In this document: piece by piece, positions 37,164-46,651 of the stretch
Layout of the letters: each line of letters opens with the position of its first letter
Numbering within the stretch: the first letter of the stretch is position 1
Source: Salinisphaera japonica YTM-1
Lineage (GTDB): Bacteria > Pseudomonadota > Gammaproteobacteria > Nevskiales > Salinisphaeraceae
Reading direction: 5' to 3'
Length of the DNA stretch: 64,000 nucleotides
NCBI RefSeq assembly: GCF_003788585.1
Contig: NZ_AYKG01000069.1
Span: 1-64,000, forward strand
The notes under the pieces: generated by a model
What the model was told of the DNA's origin: nothing
Databases searched by the model: none
Seen by the model: the letters and a program-made list of their open reading frames with translations, nothing else
Made by a program: the position numbers and the translations under genes

Positions 37164-37281
37164 CCGCCGTGCCCCTCAATCTCGTCCTAGCTGAAGTTAG
37201 CTGCTTCAGCCTGGCGATTTGCGCAATGTTTTCCGGATATTTACGTTATTTATTTCGGGGGACACAAGTCGGGGGTTTGGC

Positions 37282-38265
37282 GTGGATGATCTGGCACCAG
37301 GCGATCTGAAAACGATACTGCATTCCAAGCGGGCCAATCTTTACTACTTGCAGTATTGCCGGGTGCTTGTGAAGGGCGGCCGTGTGTCCTATGTCACCGA
37401 CGAAGGACGCGAATCGAAATACTGGAATATTCCGATCGCCAATACGACTTCGATGCTGTTGGGCACGGGCACGTCCATCACCCAGGCCGCCATGCGCGAG
37501 TTGGCCAAAGCCGGTGTGCTGGTCGGGTTTTGTGGTGGCGGCGGCACGCCGTTGTTTGCGGCCAATGAAGTAGATGTCGACGTGGCGTGGTTGTCGCCAC
37601 AAAGCGAATATCGGCCAACGGCCTATTTACAGCAATGGGTGAGCTTCTGGTTCGACGACACACTCCGTTTAGCAGCGGCCAAAGCGTTTCAGACGCAGCG
37701 TTTGCAACAGATATCGACCCTATGGGCTGATGATCGCGGCCTGCGCCAGGCCGGCTTCAAGTGCGATTTGAAGACATTACAGGACGCGCTGGCTCGCAAC
37801 GGCGACGACATCGAACACGCTGACAACACCACCGAGCTGTTAACGCTTGAAGCGCGCTTGACCAAGACCTTGTTCAAACTGGCCGTGGAAGCCACTGACT
37901 ACGGCGAATTCACGCGGGCCAAGCGCGGCAGTGGCCTCGATCCGGCGAATCGGTTTCTCGATCACGGCAATTATCTGGCCTATGGCTTGGCCGCGACCTG
38001 TTGCTGGGTGCTGGGGTTGCCGCACGGCCTGGCCGTCCTGCATGGCAAGACACGCCGCGGCGGGCTGGTTTTTGATGTCGCCGATCTGATCAAGGATGCC
38101 GTGATTCTGCCGCAGGCGTTCATTTCCGCGGTCAACGGCGATGAGGAGCAGGCGTTTCGCCAGGCCTGTATCGAACGCCTGGCACAGGTCGAGGCGCTCG
38201 ACGGCATGATCGAGACGGTACAAAACGTCGCCGACGATCTGGCAAGACGAGCCGCCAGCGCATGA
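37282..38265 (+). CDS. cas1: Type I-F Cas1 integrase
   Basis: A 327-residue Cas1f. The start is placed at GTG 37282 (VDDLAPGDLKTILHSKRAN), because this matches family N-termini and length and GGGGG lies six bases upstream. The open frame extends 21 codons further to a TTG. Family signatures include YWNIPIANTTSMLLGTGTSI, FCGGGGTPLF, the late metal ligands in FLDHGNYLAYGLAA and LHGKTRRGGLVFDVADLIKD. It forms the adaptation complex with Cas2/3 and overlaps cas2-3 by four bases. Confidence 0.96.
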   Translation: MDDLAPGDLKTILHSKRANLYYLQYCRVLVKGGRVSYVTDEGRESKYWNIPIANTTSMLLGTGTSITQAAMRELAKAGVLVGFCGGGGTPLFAANEVDVDVAWLSPQSEYRPTAYLQQWVSFWFDDTLRLAAAKAFQTQRLQQISTLWADDRGLRQAGFKCDLKTLQDALARNGDDIEHADNTTELLTLEARLTKTLFKLAVEATDYGEFTRAKRGSGLDPANRFLDHGNYLAYGLAATCCWVLGLPHGLAVLHGKTRRGGLVFDVADLIKDAVILPQAFISAVNGDEEQAFRQACIERLAQVEALDGMIETVQNVADDLARRAASA

Positions 38266-41200
38266 ACGTGCTGCTGGTATCGCAGTGCAACAAGAACGCA
38301 CTGCGAGAGACGCGCCGCATACTCGACCAGTTCGCCGAGCGTCGCGGCGATCGCACATGGCAAACACCGATCACCAAGGCGGGGCTGGATACGCTACGCA
38401 AGATGCTGCGCAAAACAGCACGCAAGAACACGGCGGTGGCCTGCCACTGGATACGCGGGACGAATCACAGCGAGCTGCTCTGGGTAGTGGGCAACGCGGC
38501 GCGTTTCAATTCGCGGGGCGCGACACCGACGCACACAACGAAACGCAACGTCCTGCGCGCCCAGGACGAGAACAACTGGCACACCGGCGAAGACATCACC
38601 CTGCTCGCGATGATGAGCGGGCTAATGCATGACTTGGGTAAGGCGACTCTTGCGTTCAAGCAACGCTTGGACGGCCGTCTTACCGAGCGCAACCGCTTTC
38701 GCCATGAATGGGTTTCGCTACGTCTGTTTCTGGCGTTCGTCGGCAATGACGACGACGAGGCCTGGCTGACGCGACTACTCGATGCCGATAGTTACGACCT
38801 GATGGCTTGGACACGTACACCGGCGTTTCAACGCGACGGCCTGGATGCGAGCGATCCTTACCCGTTCCGCGGCTTGCCGCCTTTGGCGAAGGCAATCGCC
38901 TGGCTGATCGTATCCCACCACCGGCTACCGGTCGCGCCGGCTATGCAGGACGATGGGCAACAGGCGCGCTTGGGCAGCCGGGCAAAATCGTTTAACCCAG
39001 ACTGGCTAGATGCGCCACTCGACGCTTTATCTCATACGTGGAACGAGCGACTGTCGCCGGGCGACGAAAGCGAGATCGCCCCCTACTGGGCGCTGGCCGG
39101 CGAGTTACCGGTCGCCAGTCAAGACTGGCGCAAGAAAGCCGCCCGGCTGGCCCGTCGCCTGCTCGAGCTTAAAAGCAAACACCGCGACGACTGGCACGAA
39201 AACCCTTACGTGCTACATCTGGCCCGACTGAGCCTGATGCTGGCAGACCACTATTATTCCAGCCTCGGTCTGGACGATAACGACCGGCCGGTACCCGCGC
39301 GGCGGGCTTTCGTGCATCCCAACTCTCCGCTGAAAGCGAATACGACCCGCAATCGCGCCGGGCGAGTCGTGGTCAACCAGAGCCTGGACGAGCACCTGTT
39401 GGGCGTGACGCACCACGCCGGCCAAATTGCCCATGCCCTACCGACACTCGAGCGCGATCTGGCGCGTATCGGCCGGCATCGGGGCCTGCGAAAACGTAGT
39501 GGCAAAGGCAAGTTTCAATGGCAGGATACGGCGTTCGATCAGGCAGTGGGGCTGCGCGAACGCGCGGCCCGCAACGGCGCTTTCATCATCAACATGGCGT
39601 CAACCGGCTGCGGCAAGACCCTGGCCAACGCCCGCCTGCTTTATGCTCTGGCTGATCCGCAACAAGGCATGCGGGCAACGTTCGCGCTCGGGTTACGCGC
39701 GCTGACCCAGCAAACCGGGCGCAGCTATCGTAAAGATCTGCACCTGAGCGATGACGAGCTGGCGATACGCGTGGGCGGCAGTGCGAGCCGCGCGCTATTT
39801 GCCTACTACGAGCGACTGGCCGAAGAAACGGGTTCGGCGTCTGTTCAACACCTGATCGACGAGGATGATCACGTGTTGTTCGGAGCATCCAACAACCAAC
39901 ACTCGCTGCTGACCTGGACCCACCACAACCCGAAAACCAAAAGCCTGATCGCCGCGCCGATGCTGGTCTGTACCGTGGATCATCTCGTGCCGGCCACCGA
40001 ATCCCTGCGCGGCGGGCGCCAGATCGCGCCCATGCTGCGCCTGATGAGTAGCGATCTCGTGCTCGATGAGCTGGATGACTATGGCCTCGACGACCTGCCC
40101 GCCCTGACTCGGCTAGTGCAGTGGGCCGGCATGCTGGGCACGCGGGTCGTGCTGTCGTCAGCCACTTTGCCGCCCGATATGGTCGAGGGCATGTTTCTGG
40201 CCTATCAGGCCGGTCGACGTGACTACCAGCGCAATCGCGGCGCCGATGGACCGCATGCTGCGGCCGCCGATGTGCCCTGTCTTTGGGTCGACGAATTCGG
40301 CGTACAACAAAACGACTGCGGCCAAGCGTCAGCGTTCGCCAGCGCGCACGACGACTTCGTGCAACGCCGCGCCGACAAACTTCGGCAGAAGCCCACGCTG
40401 CGTCTCGGCGCGCTCTGGCCGCTCGATATCGCCGGCGCCCAGAAACGAGAACAAACACGCGCGGCCTTTGCGCAGCATGTGCGTGATGCCGCACTCGATC
40501 TCCACCACGACCATGCCACGCCGGTTCCGGCTAGCCACAAGCACGTCAGCTTCGGTCTGTTGCGCATGGCCAATATCGATCCGCTGTTCGATGTTGCCAA
40601 AACACTGTTTGAAATGGGCGCCCCCGAGGACACCCAGTTCCATCTGTGTGTCTATCACGCGCGTTTTCCGCTCGCACAACGCGCGGCCATCGAACAGCAG
40701 CTCGATACGGCCTTGAACCGCCGCGATGAAACCGCGGTTTTTAAGGATCCGGACATTCGCCGCGCGCTCGAACAGAGCACGGCCACCCATCATCTATTCA
40801 TCGTGCTGGCCTCGCCGGTCTGTGAGGTGGGGCGTGACTGGGATGCCGACTGGGCCATCGCAGAGCCGTCTTCGATGCGCGCGCTGATTCAGCTCGCCGG
40901 CCGCGTACAACGCCACCGCCAGCAGCCAAACGGCCGCGCGAATCTAGTGATCTTCGACACTAATCTTCGGCATTTCGATAACAACCGTGGCCCTGACGGC
41001 AAGCCGGCAGCTATCTTCGTGCGACCGGGCTTCGAGCAAGAGCGCGTTGCAGCCAACCACCCCTTTCGATTGGTGGCGCATCGGCTCGGCAAGCTGATGC
41101 GCGCCGACGAATACCAGACGATCGATGCCTTACCACGCGTCGCACCGCGCCCGGCCGCTGAACGTCAACCCAAGACCCATCTGGTCGATCTAGAACATGT

Positions 41201-41663
41201 GCGCATGGCCGATACCATGCAGCCGATATCGGCCGACGCGACACGACGGCTGAACGCCGCCAGCGCTTGGCAATATCCCCAGTCCATGCTGACCGGCGTG
41301 CTCGCTCAGCAACAACCGTTTCGCGACAATACGATGCGGACCGTACAGCTGGTGCTGCTACCCGACGACGATGAGGCGGGTACACTTAGCCTGTATCGAG
41401 TCGAGGCGGATCCGGCTCGACGCGGCCAGAGCCTATATGTACCGGTTGAGAACAGCCAACGTGACAACATCGCCCTGTCATGCGGCCCACGCGTCGCGCC
41501 GTGGGGCGAGTTCGATCTCTACGGCCTGGTCGACGCCCAAGCCCGCGTGCACGACCTGACGCTGCATGTCGCCGCCTGTCGCTTCAGCCAGCTGGAAGCG
41601 CCAGACAGCGCGCAAGGCTGGCGCTACCACCCGTGGCTTGGGTTTTCGATATGGCGCGGGTAA
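38262..41663 (+). CDS. cas3: Cas2-Cas3 fusion nuclease-helicase (Cas3f)
   Basis: An 1133-residue fusion diagnostic of type I-F. Residues about 1-95 are the Cas2-like domain. The HD nuclease follows (GLMHDLGKATLAFK, about 121-134). The SF2 helicase has Walker A STGCGKT (447-453), a DEAD-box variant in LVLDELDDYG (about 600), SSATLP (about 633) and a late helicase motif including QLAGRVQRHRQ. It degrades targets marked by the Csy complex and takes part in spacer acquisition. No disruption is seen. The 3' end is overlapped antisense by a toxin remnant. Confidence 0.96.
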   Translation: MNVLLVSQCNKNALRETRRILDQFAERRGDRTWQTPITKAGLDTLRKMLRKTARKNTAVACHWIRGTNHSELLWVVGNAARFNSRGATPTHTTKRNVLRAQDENNWHTGEDITLLAMMSGLMHDLGKATLAFKQRLDGRLTERNRFRHEWVSLRLFLAFVGNDDDEAWLTRLLDADSYDLMAWTRTPAFQRDGLDASDPYPFRGLPPLAKAIAWLIVSHHRLPVAPAMQDDGQQARLGSRAKSFNPDWLDAPLDALSHTWNERLSPGDESEIAPYWALAGELPVASQDWRKKAARLARRLLELKSKHRDDWHENPYVLHLARLSLMLADHYYSSLGLDDNDRPVPARRAFVHPNSPLKANTTRNRAGRVVVNQSLDEHLLGVTHHAGQIAHALPTLERDLARIGRHRGLRKRSGKGKFQWQDTAFDQAVGLRERAARNGAFIINMASTGCGKTLANARLLYALADPQQGMRATFALGLRALTQQTGRSYRKDLHLSDDELAIRVGGSASRALFAYYERLAEETGSASVQHLIDEDDHVLFGASNNQHSLLTWTHHNPKTKSLIAAPMLVCTVDHLVPATESLRGGRQIAPMLRLMSSDLVLDELDDYGLDDLPALTRLVQWAGMLGTRVVLSSATLPPDMVEGMFLAYQAGRRDYQRNRGADGPHAAAADVPCLWVDEFGVQQNDCGQASAFASAHDDFVQRRADKLRQKPTLRLGALWPLDIAGAQKREQTRAAFAQHVRDAALDLHHDHATPVPASHKHVSFGLLRMANIDPLFDVAKTLFEMGAPEDTQFHLCVYHARFPLAQRAAIEQQLDTALNRRDETAVFKDPDIRRALEQSTATHHLFIVLASPVCEVGRDWDADWAIAEPSSMRALIQLAGRVQRHRQQPNGRANLVIFDTNLRHFDNNRGPDGKPAAIFVRPGFEQERVAANHPFRLVAHRLGKLMRADEYQTIDALPRVAPRPAAERQPKTHLVDLEHVRMADTMQPISADATRRLNAASAWQYPQSMLTGVLAQQQPFRDNTMRTVQLVLLPDDDEAGTLSLYRVEADPARRGQSLYVPVENSQRDNIALSCGPRVAPWGEFDLYGLVDAQARVHDLTLHVAACRFSQLEAPDSAQGWRYHPWLGFSIWRG

Positions 41664-41980
41664 AAGTCGCCGACGGCCCGGCCTGCGAGACAGGCGTGAC
41701 CTTGTCCGGGATATTTCCGACAGGCGTGCACCACGGCGATGATGTCGACGCGCTCCGCCCCGACTTTGTAAACGATCAGGTAATTGGGATGCGCGACCAA
41801 TTCACGCGTACCCACCACGCGGCCGCGCGGGTAGAGATCGGGGTACTGGGCCAGCGCAACGACAACGGCCTTAATGCGCTTCGTGAACTAACGCGCAGCC
41901 GGCGGGTTGTCTTCGGCGATGAACGCAACGATCTCGACGAGTTGCCTTCGAGCGGCTTCTCGCCAAACAACAGGCCGCAT
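41624..41980 (-). pseudogene. RelE/ParE-superfamily toxin with in-frame amber stop
   Basis: A single frame of 119 codons carries a recognisable RelE/ParE toxin (MRPVVWREAARRQLVEIVAF, later GTRELVAHPNYLIVYKV and VDIIAVVHACRKYP) but is interrupted by TAG at codon 31 (41888-41890), between NPPAAR and FTKRIKAVV. Restoring one base (for example CAG) would give an intact toxin. The ATG shares one base with the antitoxin stop (TGATG). The last 40 bp overlap cas2-3 antisense. The single nonsense change suggests recent inactivation. Confidence 0.8.
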
Positions 41981-42174
41981 CAGCAGTTTTGGGGGCCTCG
42001 CTGCTCGGCGCGATCGACGATGGTCGCCATCTCCGCCATCACCTCGTCGTGCGCCACCGCCGGCCGGTCGTCCGCAAGCCCCAACCGAACCTGTTCACTC
42101 AGCCAGCAATCATGGCTTTCGGCCTCGGCTTCCGTGTCGAACTCGCTGACGCGAGGGTCCTGGGATTTCGGCAT
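41980..42174 (-). CDS. RelB/ParD-type antitoxin
   Basis: A 64-residue small acidic protein (starting MPKSQDPRVSEFDTEAEAES, with WLSEQVRLGLADDRPAVAHDEVMAEM). The DDPRP-like and HDEVM motifs are common in antitoxins partnered with RelE/ParE toxins. It is intact and precedes the interrupted toxin frame, giving the usual antitoxin-toxin order. The module is antisense inside the cas locus, directly downstream of the crRNA-like element on the same strand. Confidence 0.75.
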   Translation of the reverse strand: MPKSQDPRVSEFDTEAEAESHDCWLSEQVRLGLADDRPAVAHDEVMAEMATIVDRAEQRGPQNC

Positions 42175-42244
42175 GGCGGCGCGTCTGTTGCTACTGAACA
42201 GTCTAAGCCAAAAAGTCTCTATATCAGGCTTGTCATTTCGAGCT

Positions 42245-42272
42245 GCGAAGCCTCTCACCCACCGAGGCTCGC
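42245..42272 (-). terminator. Hairpin following the crRNA-like element
   Basis: On the minus strand the second degenerate repeat runs into GCGAGCCTC, a seven-base loop and GAGGCTTCGC, a nine-base-pair stem with one bulged base. It could stop or stabilise the short transcript. There is no T-run, so termination is not assured. Confidence 0.4.
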
Positions 42273-42342
42273 AATATATCTGCCTACTCGGCAGCGAATC
42301 GTTTTACAAACAGTCTTCTGAGCTACCTGCGCGGTAGTGAGT
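42272..42342 (-). ncRNA. crRNA-like RNA: degenerate repeat, 15-nt guide, degenerate repeat (CreA/CreR-like)
   Basis: On the minus strand, degenerate repeat 1 (42342-42315) matches the array 2 repeat at 22 of 28 bases. Its hairpin stem has changed on both sides (CTACC with GGTAG), so pairing is kept, and it ends in the handle CTCAGAAG. A 15-base guide (ACTGTTTGTAAAACG, 42314-42300) follows. Degenerate repeat 2 (42299-42272) matches the array 1 repeat at 18 of the first 20 bases, including the full stem, but at only one of the last eight, the part beyond the Csy4 cleavage site. Csy4 cleavage would yield an 8-nt handle, 15-nt guide and 20-nt 3' hairpin. Confidence 0.85.
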
Positions 42343-42347
42343 GAGGA

Positions 42348-42376
42348 ATCTTACAGCAGCCGATACGGTGCGAAAA
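42348..42376 (-). promoter_or_regulatory. Weak candidate promoter for the crRNA-like RNA
   Basis: On the minus strand TAAGAT (42353-42348) lies 17 bp after TTTTCG (42376-42371). Transcription would start near 42341, at the first degenerate repeat. The -35 is poor, so this is only a candidate. Confidence 0.35.
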
Positions 42377-42398
42377 AATCTGAATACTTACAGCAACC

Positions 42399-42415
42399 TG
42401 TATTACATACAGTGG
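42399..42415 (-). promoter_or_regulatory. Protospacer and CC PAM for the 15-nt guide
   Basis: On the minus strand CC (42415-42414) is followed by ACTGTATGTAATACA (42413-42399). Aligned to the guide, positions 1-5, 7-11 and 13-14 match; 6, 12 and 15 differ. CC is the type I-F PAM, and every sixth base is flipped out and unpaired in type I complexes, so the two internal mismatches are silent. The site ends one base before a -35 box, so a bound Csy complex would occlude the promoter. Confidence 0.85.
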
Positions 42416-42416
42416 A

Positions 42417-42445
42417 TTGACATACGAATAGACGGAGCCTAGATT
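42417..42445 (+). promoter_or_regulatory. Sigma-70-type promoter of the CreT-like leader and csy operon
   Basis: A perfect -35 box TTGACA (42417-42422), a 17-bp spacer and a -10 box TAGATT (42440-42445) point toward csy1, with an expected start near 42452. It is the only strong promoter I see in the 500 bp before csy1. Confidence 0.75.
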
Positions 42446-42451
42446 GTTAGG

Positions 42452-42624
42452 TGCCGCAGCTCGGGCCAACGAGCTACGGCAAATGCAACCGCCGATGAGC
42501 ACCGGCTCCACAACATAAATCGCAGGAGGACAAGGACGTGAAAGACCGTCGCAGAAGAGCCTGATCAAACGAGACTCAGCTACTGACCATCAACCACGCC
42601 CCACGGCGGCGAGTTGCCGTGGGG
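42452..42624 (+). ncRNA. CreT-like structured leader RNA with mini-ORF
   Basis: From the predicted start near 42452, the RNA begins with a stem-loop (GCCGCAGCTCG 42453-42463 with CGAGCTACGGC 42470-42480, one mismatch). It continues to AGGAGG at 42524-42529, an eight-codon ORF at 42538-42564, and ends with a nine-base-pair hairpin (CCCCACGGC 42599-42607 with GCCGTGGGG 42616-42624). The 5' stem-loop, strong ribosome site, mini-ORF with tandem rare Arg codons and 3' stem-loop are features I associate with CreT toxin RNAs. It may alternatively be only the csy leader. Confidence 0.7.
42538..42564 (+). CDS. Eight-codon mini-ORF with tandem AGA codons
   Basis: GTG AAA GAC CGT CGC AGA AGA GCC TGA, encoding MKDRRRRA, starts eight bases after a near-perfect Shine-Dalgarno (AGGAGG). 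AGA is expected to be rare in a GC-rich genome. In haloarchaeal CreT, a mini-ORF with tandem AGA codons sequesters the rare tRNA-Arg(UCU). The same logic is inferred here. Confidence 0.65.
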   Translation: MKDRRRRA

Positions 42625-42669
42625 ATTCTATAGCCCGGGCCCACCAGGGTCCACCGGTTTGGGATTTCT

Positions 42670-44031
42670 ATGTCCGAGACAACCGATCATCCGACCGGGA
42701 CGGCCGCTCGACGTGATCGCTTTCGCCAAGCGATTGCCGATTTCATCGACGCGCGCCGTACCGCCAAGCTCAAAGGCCGCGAGGACGATACTGCGGCCGC
42801 TGCCAAATACGAATACGAAACCTGGCTGGCCAGCGCCGCCCGCCGCGTGGGCCAGATTCAGGCCGTTACCCACGTGCTCAAGGCCAGCCACCCCGACGCC
42901 CGCGGGTCCAGCCTCTATATACCGCCCACCGACCTGCCAACGCGTGACGAGATCGGCAGTCATTCCTTGGGGAGTGACTTCACCGACGACGTGGTCGGCA
43001 ACGCCGCCGCTCTCGATGTCTTCAAGTTCCTGAAAGTCGAAGTTGACGGCCGGGCGCTATTGGACTGGGTCAAACAAGATGACCCTGATCTCAAGCATGC
43101 CCTGCACGCAGACGCTAACACCGCCGATGAGCGCATGCAGGCCTTCGGCAATCTCGTGCGCAGCGGAGCGCCCAGCTCGCACGCGCTGGCCAAACAGGTG
43201 TACTGGCTCATCGATGGCCGCCCCGACGACAACCGCAACTTCCACCTGCTACAGCCGCTGTTTTCCAGCGCCCTCGCCCATCGCGTGCATGCCGATATTC
43301 AGGCTGCCCGGTTTGGGGAAGAAAACAAGGCACTTCGGCAAGCCAAAAAGTCTGACAAGCCGCACGACGGAATATATCGGGACTATCGCCAGCTGGCCGT
43401 GAGAAAGCTCGGTGGCTCGAACACTCAAAACGTGTCCCAGCTAAACGCTGAACGCCGCGGCACCAATTATCTCTTCGCCTCACTGCCGCCAACGTGGTCG
43501 CGAATGCGCGCCATCACTTTGCTCGAGCTGGAATCTTCCACCCGCCAGTTCTTCTCTTTTGAAGGCGTTCGCGATCTGTTGCGCAGGCTCGTCCAGCTGC
43601 TCCAGTCAGATCCGAAACGGACAATGGAAACTCGCCAGAAGCGTGAAGCCATCGAACAGGCGTTGGGCGCGCGGTTGCCACTTTTCGCGGCCACGATTCG
43701 CGACCAACTCTCAGCGGGTTGGACGCGCGACCCAACCTGCGAGTTGCCGCTATGTGAACAGCTCTGGCTCGATCCGGATCGCCTCACTTTGAATAAGCGG
43801 CCAGCTGGCGAAGGCGGCGAGGCAGACCATGCCTTCGAACAGGCCTACCACTGGGGTGACTGGCCGGACGATGTCGCCGGCATTTTCGCGAACTGGCTCA
43901 ACGAACAGCTGCGGCGTGTCGGCGTTACCTCGGTCGGCGATATGGAATACCGCCACTGGGCGCGACAGGCGATCGTCGATGCGGCCTGGCCGATTCCCAT
44001 GCAACGACGCGCCCCAGAGGATCGATCATGA
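42670..44031 (+). CDS. csy1: Csy1 (Cas8f), large subunit of the type I-F surveillance complex
   Basis: A 453-residue Cas8f starting MSETTDHPTGTAARRDRFRQ. The N-terminal helical part carries a FIDARRTAKLKG-like segment, and later GGSNTQNVSQLNAERRGTNYLF matches family members. Csy1 binds the crRNA 5' handle and, with Csy2, the PAM. It overlaps csy2 by four bases. It lies about 218 bp downstream of the predicted promoter start and 45 bp after the CreT-like 3' hairpin. Confidence 0.93.
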   Translation: MSETTDHPTGTAARRDRFRQAIADFIDARRTAKLKGREDDTAAAAKYEYETWLASAARRVGQIQAVTHVLKASHPDARGSSLYIPPTDLPTRDEIGSHSLGSDFTDDVVGNAAALDVFKFLKVEVDGRALLDWVKQDDPDLKHALHADANTADERMQAFGNLVRSGAPSSHALAKQVYWLIDGRPDDNRNFHLLQPLFSSALAHRVHADIQAARFGEENKALRQAKKSDKPHDGIYRDYRQLAVRKLGGSNTQNVSQLNAERRGTNYLFASLPPTWSRMRAITLLELESSTRQFFSFEGVRDLLRRLVQLLQSDPKRTMETRQKREAIEQALGARLPLFAATIRDQLSAGWTRDPTCELPLCEQLWLDPDRLTLNKRPAGEGGEADHAFEQAYHWGDWPDDVAGIFANWLNEQLRRVGVTSVGDMEYRHWARQAIVDAAWPIPMQRRAPEDRS

Positions 44032-45014
44032 GCGACGCTCCGAACTTCACGCACCTGCTGGTACTGCCACGGCTGAACGTACAAAACGCCAACGCGATTT
44101 CGAGCCCGCTGACCCACGGCTTTCCTTCGATAACAGCTTTCATCGGGCTGATGTGGGCATTGGAACGCAAAACCCGGGCCGCCGGTCTGGATGTTGCTTT
44201 TCAGGGCATCGGCGTGGTTTGCCATCGGCATCAAGAACAAACCACGGAGGGCGGCTACACCAAGGCTTTTCATCTGACACGCAACCCGGCCGCCAAGGAC
44301 GGCAGTACGGCAGCGATCGTCGAGGAAGGCCGGATTCATATCGAGGTCAGCCTGATCCTGGCCGTCACGAGCGACCGCTGGCAGCGCGACGCCAAGGCAC
44401 AGCAAGACGATACCGAGACCATCCAGCAATTCATCGCGGCCATGCGCATTGCTGGCGGCTCTGTCATGCCGCCGGACAGTCCGTGGTTACCGCGGTACCA
44501 GCCACAAGTGGTCGACCTCACCGGCAACGAAGCCGATCGTCTCGATGCGTTTCGCAAACTCCGGCTGCGCCTGGTGCCCGGTTTCACCCTGGTCTCCCGC
44601 GACGATCTGATCACACAGCGTCACGACGCTTTGGCCGCCGAAGATGCCAACGCCACGCGCCTCGATGCCTGGCTTTCACTGTCCCGCATCAACTGGCGCT
44701 ACAACGACGACGAACATAAGTGGCAACACGACCGGCGCGGTCTGGGCTGGGTCGTACCGATCCCCGTGGGCTACGGCGCACTCGGTGATGTCCACCCCGG
44801 CGGCGACGTCGTCAATGCACGCGACCCCGATACCCCGTTCCGATTCGCCGAAAGCCTGTACTCGATGGGGCAGTGGATCAGCCCACACCGCCTGGAACAG
44901 GCCGAACAACTGATCTGGTACGCACAAACACGCCCCGACGACGGCCTGTATCGCTGCTGCAACGACTACCGCCCCATCGACGACCCGTTCGAAGCGCTTT
45001 ACGACTTCGACTGA
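44028..45014 (+). CDS. csy2: Csy2 (Cas5f)
   Basis: A 328-residue Cas5-type RAMP protein that caps the 5' end of crRNA with Csy1. Family features are [20 protein letters not shown] and [18 protein letters not shown] at the N-terminus and [20 protein letters not shown] near the C-terminus. It is coupled to csy1 by a four-base overlap; a 29-bp gap with an excellent ribosome site precedes csy3. Confidence 0.93.
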
Positions 45015-45043: not shown

Positions 45044-46078
45044 ATGGCTAAAAACGACGCTCTCAAAACCGCTTCCGTCCTTGCTTTCGAACGCAAGCTC
45101 GACCCGTCAGATGCCGTGCTGCGGGCCGGTCGCTGGGCCGACCGTGAACAACACGCGCAATGGCTGGCCGTGCCGGTACGAGAAAAGTCCGTGCGCGGCA
45201 CGATTTCGAATCGCCTCAAGACCAAGGACCAAGACCCGGCGAAACTCGACGCGGCCATCGAAAATCCCAATCTCCAAACCGTCGACGTCGCGGCCCTGCC
45301 GCACGATGCCGATACGCTGGCCGTGCATTTCACTCTGCGCGTACTCGCCGGTGCCGGTATTCCTTCGGCCTGCAACAACGCTGACTACCAAGACAAGCTC
45401 AAACAGACCGTCGCCGGCTATGTCAGTGAACACGGCTTTGGCGAGCTGGCACACCGCTATGCCTGCAATCTCGCCAACGGGCGTTTTCTATGGCGCAACC
45501 GTCTCAAGGCCGACGAGATCGAAATCGTCGTCTCGCAAACCAAAGCGGGCAAGGTCGAACAACAATGGACCTTCAACGCCCTGGCGCATTCGCTGCGCGA
45601 TTTTCAGGGTAATGAGGAAACGCGTGAACTCGGCCAAGTGATCGACGCTGCCCTGGCAGGCGACGATTATCTCCTGCTCGACGTCGTTGCCTTTGCGCGT
45701 ATCGGCGGCGGCCAGGAAGTCTTTCCATCTCAGGAATTGATTCTGGAACGAACCCGCGGCGATAAGAGCAAAACACTCTATTACATCGGCAATAAAGACA
45801 ACGCCGCAATCCACTCACAGAAGCTCGGCAACGCCTTGCGCACCATCGATACCTGGTACCCCGCAGCGGACGACGGTGCCGATCTCGGTCCAATCGCGGT
45901 CGAACCCTATGGCTCGGTGACCACGCAAGGCGCCGCTTATCGCCAGCCAAAGGAGAAGAAGGATTTCTACAACCTGCTGGATCGCTGGCTTTTGAAAGAC
46001 GAAACGCCGTCCGCAGCAAATCAGCATTTCGTCATGGCCACCCTCATCCGTGGCGGCGTATTCGGCGATGCGGGGTAA
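45044..46078 (+). CDS. csy3: Csy3 (Cas7f) backbone subunit
   Basis: A 344-residue Cas7-family protein that polymerises along the crRNA guide. AAGGAGATATCAAA immediately precedes ATG 45044, a very strong ribosome site fitting the need for several copies per complex. Family segments include [40 protein letters not shown] and [14 protein letters not shown]. It is followed after three bases by csy4. Confidence 0.95.
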
Positions 46079-46081
46079 GCA

Positions 46082-46651
46082 ATGGACCACTACATTGACA
46101 TCCATATACGCCCGGACCCCGACTTTCCCGCGCCCATGCTCATGGGCGCGCTTTACGCCAAGCTGCATCGGGCGCTACACGATCTAGACGCCCAGGACAT
46201 CGGCATCAGCCTGCCCGACCACAAAACCGGCGCACGGGCTCGCACGCCAGGGCAACGGCTTCGGCTGCACAGCACGCAGGATAGGCTGAACACGCTGATG
46301 GCCATGTCCTGGCTGAACGGCATGCGCGATCATTTGACGGTGGAGGCGGTAAAACCTGTGCCGCCAGACGCCCGGCATCGTACGGTCAGGCGCCGACAGT
46401 TCAATACCGGCGGGCCCAGCCGCATACGTCGCTACGCCAAACGTCATGGCGTATCCGAACACCATGCACGAAGCCTTATGGCTGGCCCAGCGGATCGGAA
46501 AATCACCCTGCCCTTCATCCAGATCGCGAGTCGCTCAACCGGTGAACGCTTTGCCCTGTTCATAGAGCACGGCAACCTGCAGCGCGAACCAGTCGATGGC
46601 ACATTCAATCACTACGGCCTCAGCCAGCAGGCCACCATCCCATGGTTCTGA
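46082..46651 (+). CDS. csy4: Csy4 (Cas6f) crRNA endoribonuclease
   Basis: A 189-residue RNase that cuts repeat RNA at the 3' base of the hairpin. The catalytic histidine is at position 29 (YAKLHRAL), exactly as in the Pseudomonas enzyme, and the arginine-rich RNA-binding helix region (VRRRQFNTGGPSRIRRYAKR) is present. The C-terminus HYGLSQQATIPWF is typical. It should process both arrays and the crRNA-like element at 42272-42342, whose hairpins keep the required closing pairs. The array 2 leader begins directly after its stop. Confidence 0.96.
   Translation: MDHYIDIHIRPDPDFPAPMLMGALYAKLHRALHDLDAQDIGISLPDHKTGARARTPGQRLRLHSTQDRLNTLMAMSWLNGMRDHLTVEAVKPVPPDARHRTVRRRQFNTGGPSRIRRYAKRHGVSEHHARSLMAGPADRKITLPFIQIASRSTGERFALFIEHGNLQREPVDGTFNHYGLSQQATIPWF

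Follow-up and report, generated by a model that had tools for sequence, protein, structure and literature searches.

The stretch of DNA analysed here (the window, 64,000 nucleotides) comprises positions 1 to 64,000 of contig NZ_AYKG01000069.1 of Salinisphaera japonica YTM-1, and it carries a type I-F CRISPR (clustered regularly interspaced short palindromic repeats) locus with the effector genes csy1-4. The question raised by this locus is what a short guide, encoded in the gap between cas3 and csy1 and partly complementary to a site beside a promoter in the same gap, may be doing there. The module is probably a type I-F CreTA, i.e., a CRISPR-repressed RNA toxin-antitoxin pair located in the cas3-csy1 gap (probability roughly 0.77). 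Judged from the sequence, it has the testable features of a CreTA other than the start-codon stem, which is treated separately below. Autorepression of the csy genes by the same guide (known as CreR) is a possible second output. The coordinates of all features are collected in Table 1.

Guide and target in the window

The putative antitoxin gene creA lies on the minus strand and consists of two degenerate repeats (psi-repeats) that enclose the guide; they have hairpins of the Cas6 type and a 5' handle of 8 nt. Psi-repeat 1 matches the type I-F consensus used in the scan at 23 of 28 positions. In its stem, one pair is changed on both sides relative to the array repeat (CTGCC/GGCAG to CTACC/GGTAG). 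The element does not have the form of an ordinary type I-F array (near-identical repeats of 28 nt at a spacing of about 60 nt), as its spacer measures 15 nt and its repeats are degenerate. Folding of the creA transcript alone was uninformative (z -0.09). The guide is partly complementary to a site at the promoter of the putative toxin gene creT, at a distance of 84 bp, which is flanked by the protospacer adjacent motif (PAM) CC. Pairing covers positions 1-5, 7-11 and 13-14, and a single base separates the CC PAM from the TTGACA box.

The 14-base pattern CCACTGTNTGTAANAC has one site without mismatches in the window and likewise one in the whole 3.26-Mb genome; when two mismatches are allowed, three further genome sites appear, the guide itself among them. 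Composition-preserving shuffles of the guide were searched over the 1-kb cas3-csy1 interval. At least 12 of the 13 read positions behind CC were reached by 1 of 20,000 shuffled guides, and at least 12 of 15 at any positions behind CC by 14 of 20,000, and the chance level for the guide and target of the window is placed at about 5e-5. An initial annotation of this DNA had described the guide and its target at the coordinates of Table 1, with the CC PAM, mismatches at positions 6, 12 and 15 and a TTGACA box one base away, and the sequence is as described. Its estimate of a few in a million for the chance probability was right in being small and wrong in size, the value found here being roughly tenfold higher.

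Guides across type I-F loci

Loci with csy1 were collected from the order of the window (16 of 85 genomes), from its class (29 of 369), from another order (36 of 293) and from a third order (5 of 54), and from three named genome contigs and ten plasmids (of 17 plasmid hits). These sources overlap in part. Six Csy1 hits came without a locus, and L024, L025, L064 and L096 were excluded as duplicates or as the second half of a split gene (loci are numbered with the prefix L). A creA-type guide with a CC-flanked match behind a repeat-like element was found in 34 of the 84 distinct csy1 loci. Three additional loci yielded one more guide (L095), which gives a total of 35 of 87; a guide in L048 was added only under looser rules. 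The module of Acinetobacter LoGeW2-3, one of the three published I-F CreTA loci, was recovered as the positive control (L085).

Positions 6, 12, 18, 24 and 30 were masked when the 34 loci were chosen; the count per position is itself symmetric and unmasked. Positions 1 to 13 match in 34, 34, 34, 34, 34, 8, 33, 33, 30, 29, 32, 6 and 33 of the 34 loci, and positions 14 to 17 in 23, 25, 26 and 28. Positions 6 and 12, with 8 and 6 matches, are at chance level. With an unmasked selection (at least 12 of 17) these two positions match in 9 and 8 of 35 loci. Among 90 repeat-like candidates, the mask (6,12) gave 28 loci with at least 13/15, five other masks gave 12-15, and shuffled guides gave 0-1. In 33 of the 34 loci none of 300 shuffled guides equalled the real one, and in L054 one did. 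When the PAM was not required, 28 of the 29 sites with a score of 13/15 or more still had CC in front. A box resembling TTGACA in at least 4 of 6 bases stands 0-4 nt from the PAM in 22 of 30 loci, compared with a fraction of 0.20 at random positions; this test covered the 30 loci in which target and csy1 occupy opposite strands, with four dropped. A chance match between guide and target is rejected on the strength of the shuffles and the comparative survey.

The main support for the reality of guide and target comes from other genomes, in which unrelated pairs are laid out in the same way. In S. hydrothermalis (L025, in which L009 is wholly contained), an unrelated guide of 26 nt matches its own target except at positions 6, 12, 14, 18, 22, 24 and 25. 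The 15-nt guide of L023, a locus from another family, is likewise unrelated and has the identical mismatch set of 6, 12 and 15. The guides of L015 and L016 differ from each other at positions 11, 15, 16 and 20, and the same four differences are found in their targets.

Guides are carried by 30 of the 37 loci with a cas3-csy1 gap of at least 250 bp, versus 5 of the 49 with a smaller gap. The measure of the gap is rough, with L027 left out for its short flank and inserted genes miscounted (L041 reads 0). Since guides occur mostly in loci with a real gap, the gap looks like a slot for a Csy-guided switch with varied outputs. The survey suggests that guide-directed control in this gap may be common in type I-F. 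Twelve loci lacking creA were searched again under relaxed rules (control, L008), and one candidate was accepted, the degenerate creA of L048 (14/15). L047 (12/15, with a poor repeat) and three others at 11 were taken as chance, and in L017 the repeat is good and the best target reaches 11/15 without 5' matches.

The initial annotation had held positions 6 and 12 to be unread, which is borne out by the survey and holds generally. It had also held that a crRNA-like (CRISPR RNA-like) element with an I-F PAM is aimed at the promoter of csy1. The element, the PAM and the aim at the adjacent promoter recur in 34-35 loci and can be retained; what has to be given up is a promoter leading straight into csy1, as a CreT-like element (42524-42624) intervenes.

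The CreT-like element

This element, downstream of the target, consists of a strong Shine-Dalgarno (SD) sequence, a mini open reading frame (mini-ORF) and a hairpin, and it sits between the promoter and csy1. The mini-ORF is followed by 34 nt, the hairpin, 45 nt and csy1. The block of SD and mini-ORF is up to 97% identical to that of S. hydrothermalis (best 30-column window), as compared with 63% at the third codon positions of csy1 and 33-47% in promoter windows. The best conserved stretch of the leader therefore falls within the CreT-like element, and for this reason the Acinetobacter I-F CreTA is taken as the closest published relative. The hairpin has a predicted energy of -21.1 kcal/mol, and none of 200 shuffles was as stable. 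A similar hairpin is present in S. hydrothermalis, and by eye in L023 with paired changes. ATTCTA follows the hairpin in the window, L009, L015, L016, L023, L026, L033 and L034, and is absent from L021, L022 and L029. Lacking a U-run, the hairpin may serve in processing or stability and not as a terminator.

CreT-like elements were found in 16 of the 34 guide loci, namely the window, L009, L015, L016, L021, L022, L023, L026 (Gilvimarinus algae), L029, L033, L034, L036, L058, L060, L063 and L085. A strict AGA-type CreT motif had a single occurrence in 369 genomes, located upstream of csy1 in the genome of L033, and a motif fitted to the spacing of the window occurred once in the genome of the window with one mismatch allowed. 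The genus holds two distant I-F lineages (L019-L022 versus L008, Csy1 about 45% identical). In the second lineage, the CreT that L021 and L022 carry in this place is of a different type, and no creA was found in L019 and L020.

In the CreT of Acinetobacter, a stem that includes the start codon is needed for toxicity (Wang et al. 2023, PMC10097628). For comparison, 18 elements were picked by GGAGG and a start codon regardless of pairing; in L040, L068 and L069 this is the start of csy1 itself. The four pairs 1-15, 2-14, 3-13 and 4-12 are all possible in 11 of the 18, versus 1, 3, 0, 0, 1 and 0 of 18 in six slid-register controls. All four are possible in the window.

In 11 window genes AGA is the least used codon (3 of 4,833 codons), and two AGA codons follow each other at codons 6-7 of the mini-ORF in both the window and S. 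hydrothermalis. AGA-AGA is found at codons 8-9 in L015, L016, L026, L033, L058 and L060. Other tandems at codons 8-9 are AGA-AGG (Acinetobacter), ATA-ATA (L063), TTA-ATA (L022) and TTA-TTA (L034); a single such codon stands at position 9 in L021, L023 and L029, and none in L036. Codon usage for the other loci in this listing is crude, all long open frames having been counted. In a set of 12 CreT members, preselected for at least three start-codon stem pairs and with codon usage from csy1 and cas3 only, the rarest 15% of codons include codon 9 in 10 of 11 members and codon 8 in 8 of 12, as compared with only 0-2 members for codons 2-5 and 10. One gene for tRNA-Arg(UCU) was found in the genome (loci for scanning were available for 30 of the 47 tRNA matches).

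Tandem rare codons and a downstream stem-loop, the traits of the haloarchaeal type of CreT, are thus both present in the window. Two haloarchaeal CreT toxins are described as acting through consecutive rare codon pairs (PMC8501985), and the tandems of rare codons in related modules (AGA-AGA, ATA-ATA) suggest that tRNA could be sequestered here as well. Such tandems are apparently not discussed in the main text of PMC10097628, in which the whole word 'aga' is absent. CreR in type I-F, or the tandem rare codons of I-F CreT, may have been described earlier, novelty having been judged on the open-licence literature.

Proposed circuit, rival explanations and locus context

In the proposed circuit, creA would be transcribed from the minus strand and cut by Csy4 (Cas6f), giving a guide made up of an 8-nt handle and a spacer of 15 nt. 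Csy1-4 loaded with this guide would form a short complex on the CC-flanked site beside the -35 box, which would read positions 1-5, 7-11 and 13-14 and ignore 6 and 12, the pairing pattern seen in the 34 loci. Because this pairing would be too short and too imperfect for cleavage, the complex would only block RNA polymerase. The blocked transcript would start with the CreT-like RNA, with its strong SD, GTG start, tandem AGA and stable hairpin. If Csy were lost or inhibited, CreT RNA would be made and translation would be hampered, with initiating ribosomes, tRNA-Arg(UCU) or both tied up. Within 41650-42720, TTGACA-17-TAGATT is the one sigma-70-like site reported on the plus strand. Since no other plus-strand promoter-like site was reported before csy1, the same promoter may, with less certainty, also feed csy1-4 and give a CreR-like feedback.

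The module shares with the CreTA of Acinetobacter sp. WCHA45 and LoGeW2-3, as described in PMC10097628, its place in the cas3-csy1 gap, a creA with two degenerate repeats divergent from creT, a CC-flanked partial target near the creT promoter, and an SD with a mini-ORF whose start codon is able to pair with codon 5. It differs in guide length (15 nt versus 20 nt in WCHA45) and in the position of the target, which lies upstream of the -35 box in the window and downstream of PcreT in WCHA45. Unlike the Acinetobacter CreTA, the window has a mini-ORF of eight codons, in which the tandem AGA occupies codons 6-7, and a strong hairpin in front of csy1. The WCHA45 guide is reported in the same source to be unpaired at positions 6, 11 and 18, and mutating position 10, 12, 19 or 20 was harmless. 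With the CreTA of Haloarcula hispanica and Halobacterium hubeiense, as described in PMC8501985, the module shares a mini-ORF with a start codon and two consecutive rare codons (AGA or AUA), a downstream stem-loop and, putatively, Cascade-guided repression; a strong SD is described for H. hispanica. These systems differ in being archaeal, with no evidence of homology, and sequestration, reported there, is only suggested in the window.

A number of observations weigh against a type I-F CreTA. No clear CreT mini-ORF was found in 18 of the 34 creA loci, which indicates that the guide circuit does not require a CreT. Among the loci without a clear CreT is L090, the tree row closest to the Acinetobacter type of the literature. 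In the sister locus L009 of S. hydrothermalis, no TTGACA-like box was found beside the PAM; L009 is one of the 8 of 30 loci that fail this test. Folded in isolation, the window mini-ORF favours a shifted stem (GACG/CGUC), which also includes the first base of the start codon, over the stem of the Acinetobacter type. In a Csy1 tree of 83 rows, from which 4 too-short rows were left out, all 16 of the 16 CreT loci fall into one group of 45 rows (SH-aLRT, an approximate likelihood ratio test, 94, not starred), and the other 38 rows contain none. Inside this group they are patchy, and four labels need 28 changes versus 32.1 when shuffled (6 of 200 shuffles were as low); the clustering is weak, and frequent gain or loss seems to have occurred. 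In the CreT of A. baumannii, according to PMC10097628, toxicity was abolished by synonymous changes located at codons 2, 3 and 5 and not at AGA/AGG, and loop bases able to pair with 23S rRNA mattered; the loop letters in the window differ. In view of these findings, tRNA sequestration is not established for the I-F CreT family.

The loci without a CreT lend weight to autorepression of the CreR type, according to which the promoter serves csy1-4, Csy limits its own synthesis, and the SD and mini-ORF are incidental or a regulatory leader. No CreT was seen between target and csy1 in L092 (54 bp to the csy1 match), L086, L071, L054 and L095, and CreR is reported for types I-B, I-E and V-A (PMC13131331). 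A mini-CRISPR with limited complementarity to a cas promoter is described for CreR in PMC12737573, PMC13131331 and PMC12948488, and the guide of the window is aimed at the sole plus-strand sigma-70-like site reported before csy1. Yet the hairpin lies between that promoter and csy1, as do the conserved SD and mini-ORF of CreT type, which hold the best conserved stretch of the leader. An incidental leader would leave unexplained the eight other loci with an AGA-AGA or AGA-AGG mini-ORF. According to PMC12737573, CreR is generally uncoupled from toxin genes, a trait that the window, judging by the element at 42524-42624, does not appear to share. The window also differs from the described cases in being of subtype I-F, with an RNA-toxin-like element parting the promoter from csy1. 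Because of the CreT-like element, plain CreR is rejected as the principal explanation and kept as an unlikely rival.

An alternative that makes use of this leader is an attenuator, in which the mini-ORF, with its tandem rare Arg codons, and the hairpin would sense charged tRNA-Arg(UCU) or the state of translation and control read-through into csy1, with the guide as a second layer. It draws on the order of mini-ORF, hairpin and csy1 and on the same single reported promoter; it is improbable, given that the hairpin lacks a U-run, that the start-codon stem recurs across loci in the register of the published toxin RNA, and that the distance from target to csy1 varies (571 bp in L033). Chance similarity, or the functionless remnant of a decayed array, could account for degenerate repeats and a short guide, and for the window taken by itself the chance level is no lower than that given above. 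This explanation is very improbable, as 34-35 guide and target pairs share PAM, register and unread positions and as L015 and L016 vary together in guide and target. A CreTA whose guide would repress an RNA toxin is preferred over all three.

The CreTA and CreR outputs could also be joined, a reading held tentatively and at somewhat below even odds. The toxin RNA would then be the 5' leader of the csy1-4 messenger, and one Csy-repressed promoter would yield both poison and effector. The tandem AGA would mark a tRNA-Arg(UCU)-sequestering CreT that joins the start-codon stem of Acinetobacter with the rare-codon trick of the haloarchaea, and other I-F lineages would swap the guide slot among CreT, no CreT (CreR-like) and small protein genes.

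The type I-F gene set is complete in the window (cas1, cas2-3 and csy1-4). CRISPR arrays flank it on both sides with a spacing of mostly 60 nt, hence spacers of about 32 nt. In the interval between the target and psi-repeat 1 (42350-42400, minus strand), a near-duplicate GTTGCTGTAAG / GCTGCTGTAAG was noticed by eye, which might be part of a creA promoter or a regulator site.

Table 1. Positions of the type I-F genes, the creA and CreT-like elements and neighbouring genes in the window.
Feature	Coordinates	Strand	Remarks
cas1	37219..38265	+	type I-F gene set
cas2-3 (cas3f)	38262..41663	+	
ParE-like toxin gene	41660..41980	-	broken by an in-frame stop; context
PaaA2-like antitoxin ORF, cas3-creA interval	41980..42258	-	context, probably outside the guide circuit
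creA psi-repeat 2	42272..42299	-	first 20 nt ATTCGCTGCCGAGTAGGCAG retain a Cas6f-type hairpin; last 8 nt degenerate
15-nt guide ACTGTTTGTAAAACG	42300..42314	-	
creA psi-repeat 1 (28 nt)	42315..42342	-	stem CTACC/GGTAG; 8-nt 5' handle CTCAGAAG
Guide target ACTGTATGTAATACA	42399..42413	-	12/15 bases match; mismatches 6, 12, 15
CC PAM (type I-F)	42414..42415	-	
Promoter-like TTGACA, 17 nt, TAGATT	42417..42445	+	TTGACA box at 42417-42422
Strong Shine-Dalgarno AGGAGG of CreT-like element	42524..42529	+	
CreT-like mini-ORF GTG AAA GAC CGT CGC AGA AGA GCC TGA	42538..42564	+	8 sense codons
10-bp hairpin, then ATTCTA	42599..42624	+	
csy1 (cas8f)	42670..44031	+	
csy2 (cas5f)	44028..45014	+	
csy3 (cas7f)	45044..46078	+	
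csy4 (cas6f)	46082..46651	+	

Type II toxin-antitoxin-like genes are repeated occupants of the cas3-csy1 interval across I-F loci. The PaaA2-ParE pair of the window (41660-42258, minus strand, ParE broken) is uninterrupted in S. hydrothermalis (L007 1988-2457), where the homologue of the broken ParE has 91 residues. Other occupants are VapC in Vitreoscilla (L087 737-1135) and GNAT/DUF1778 in Methylomonas (L094 1105-1867). In some of the related loci that lack a CreT, small protein genes stand in its place. Such a gene (58-78 aa) lies behind the target in L068, L069, L074, L040 and L053, and by eye likewise in L067 (about 47 aa) and L073; L068/L069, L073/L074 and L040/L053 are similar pairs. 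The genes may encode protein toxins under CRISPR repression, or they may be leader genes of csy. CrePA, as described in PMC12737573, shares with the proposed circuit of the window a creA guide that represses a toxin gene. It differs in that its toxin is a protein, typically with a KilA-N domain, while the product in the window is an RNA element with an ORF of eight codons.

The surveyed guides amount to a natural readout, on the scale of evolution, of how Csy reads DNA, with positions 1-5, 7-11 and 13 mostly held while 6 and 12 drift. Tandem rare codons at a nearly fixed place link two types of CreT that have been described as distinct. For the organism itself, loss of the CRISPR system would probably release a poison in the form of the CreT-like RNA. 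If the leader of csy1-4 is indeed that poison, loss of Csy would both punish the cell and drive the resynthesis of Csy.
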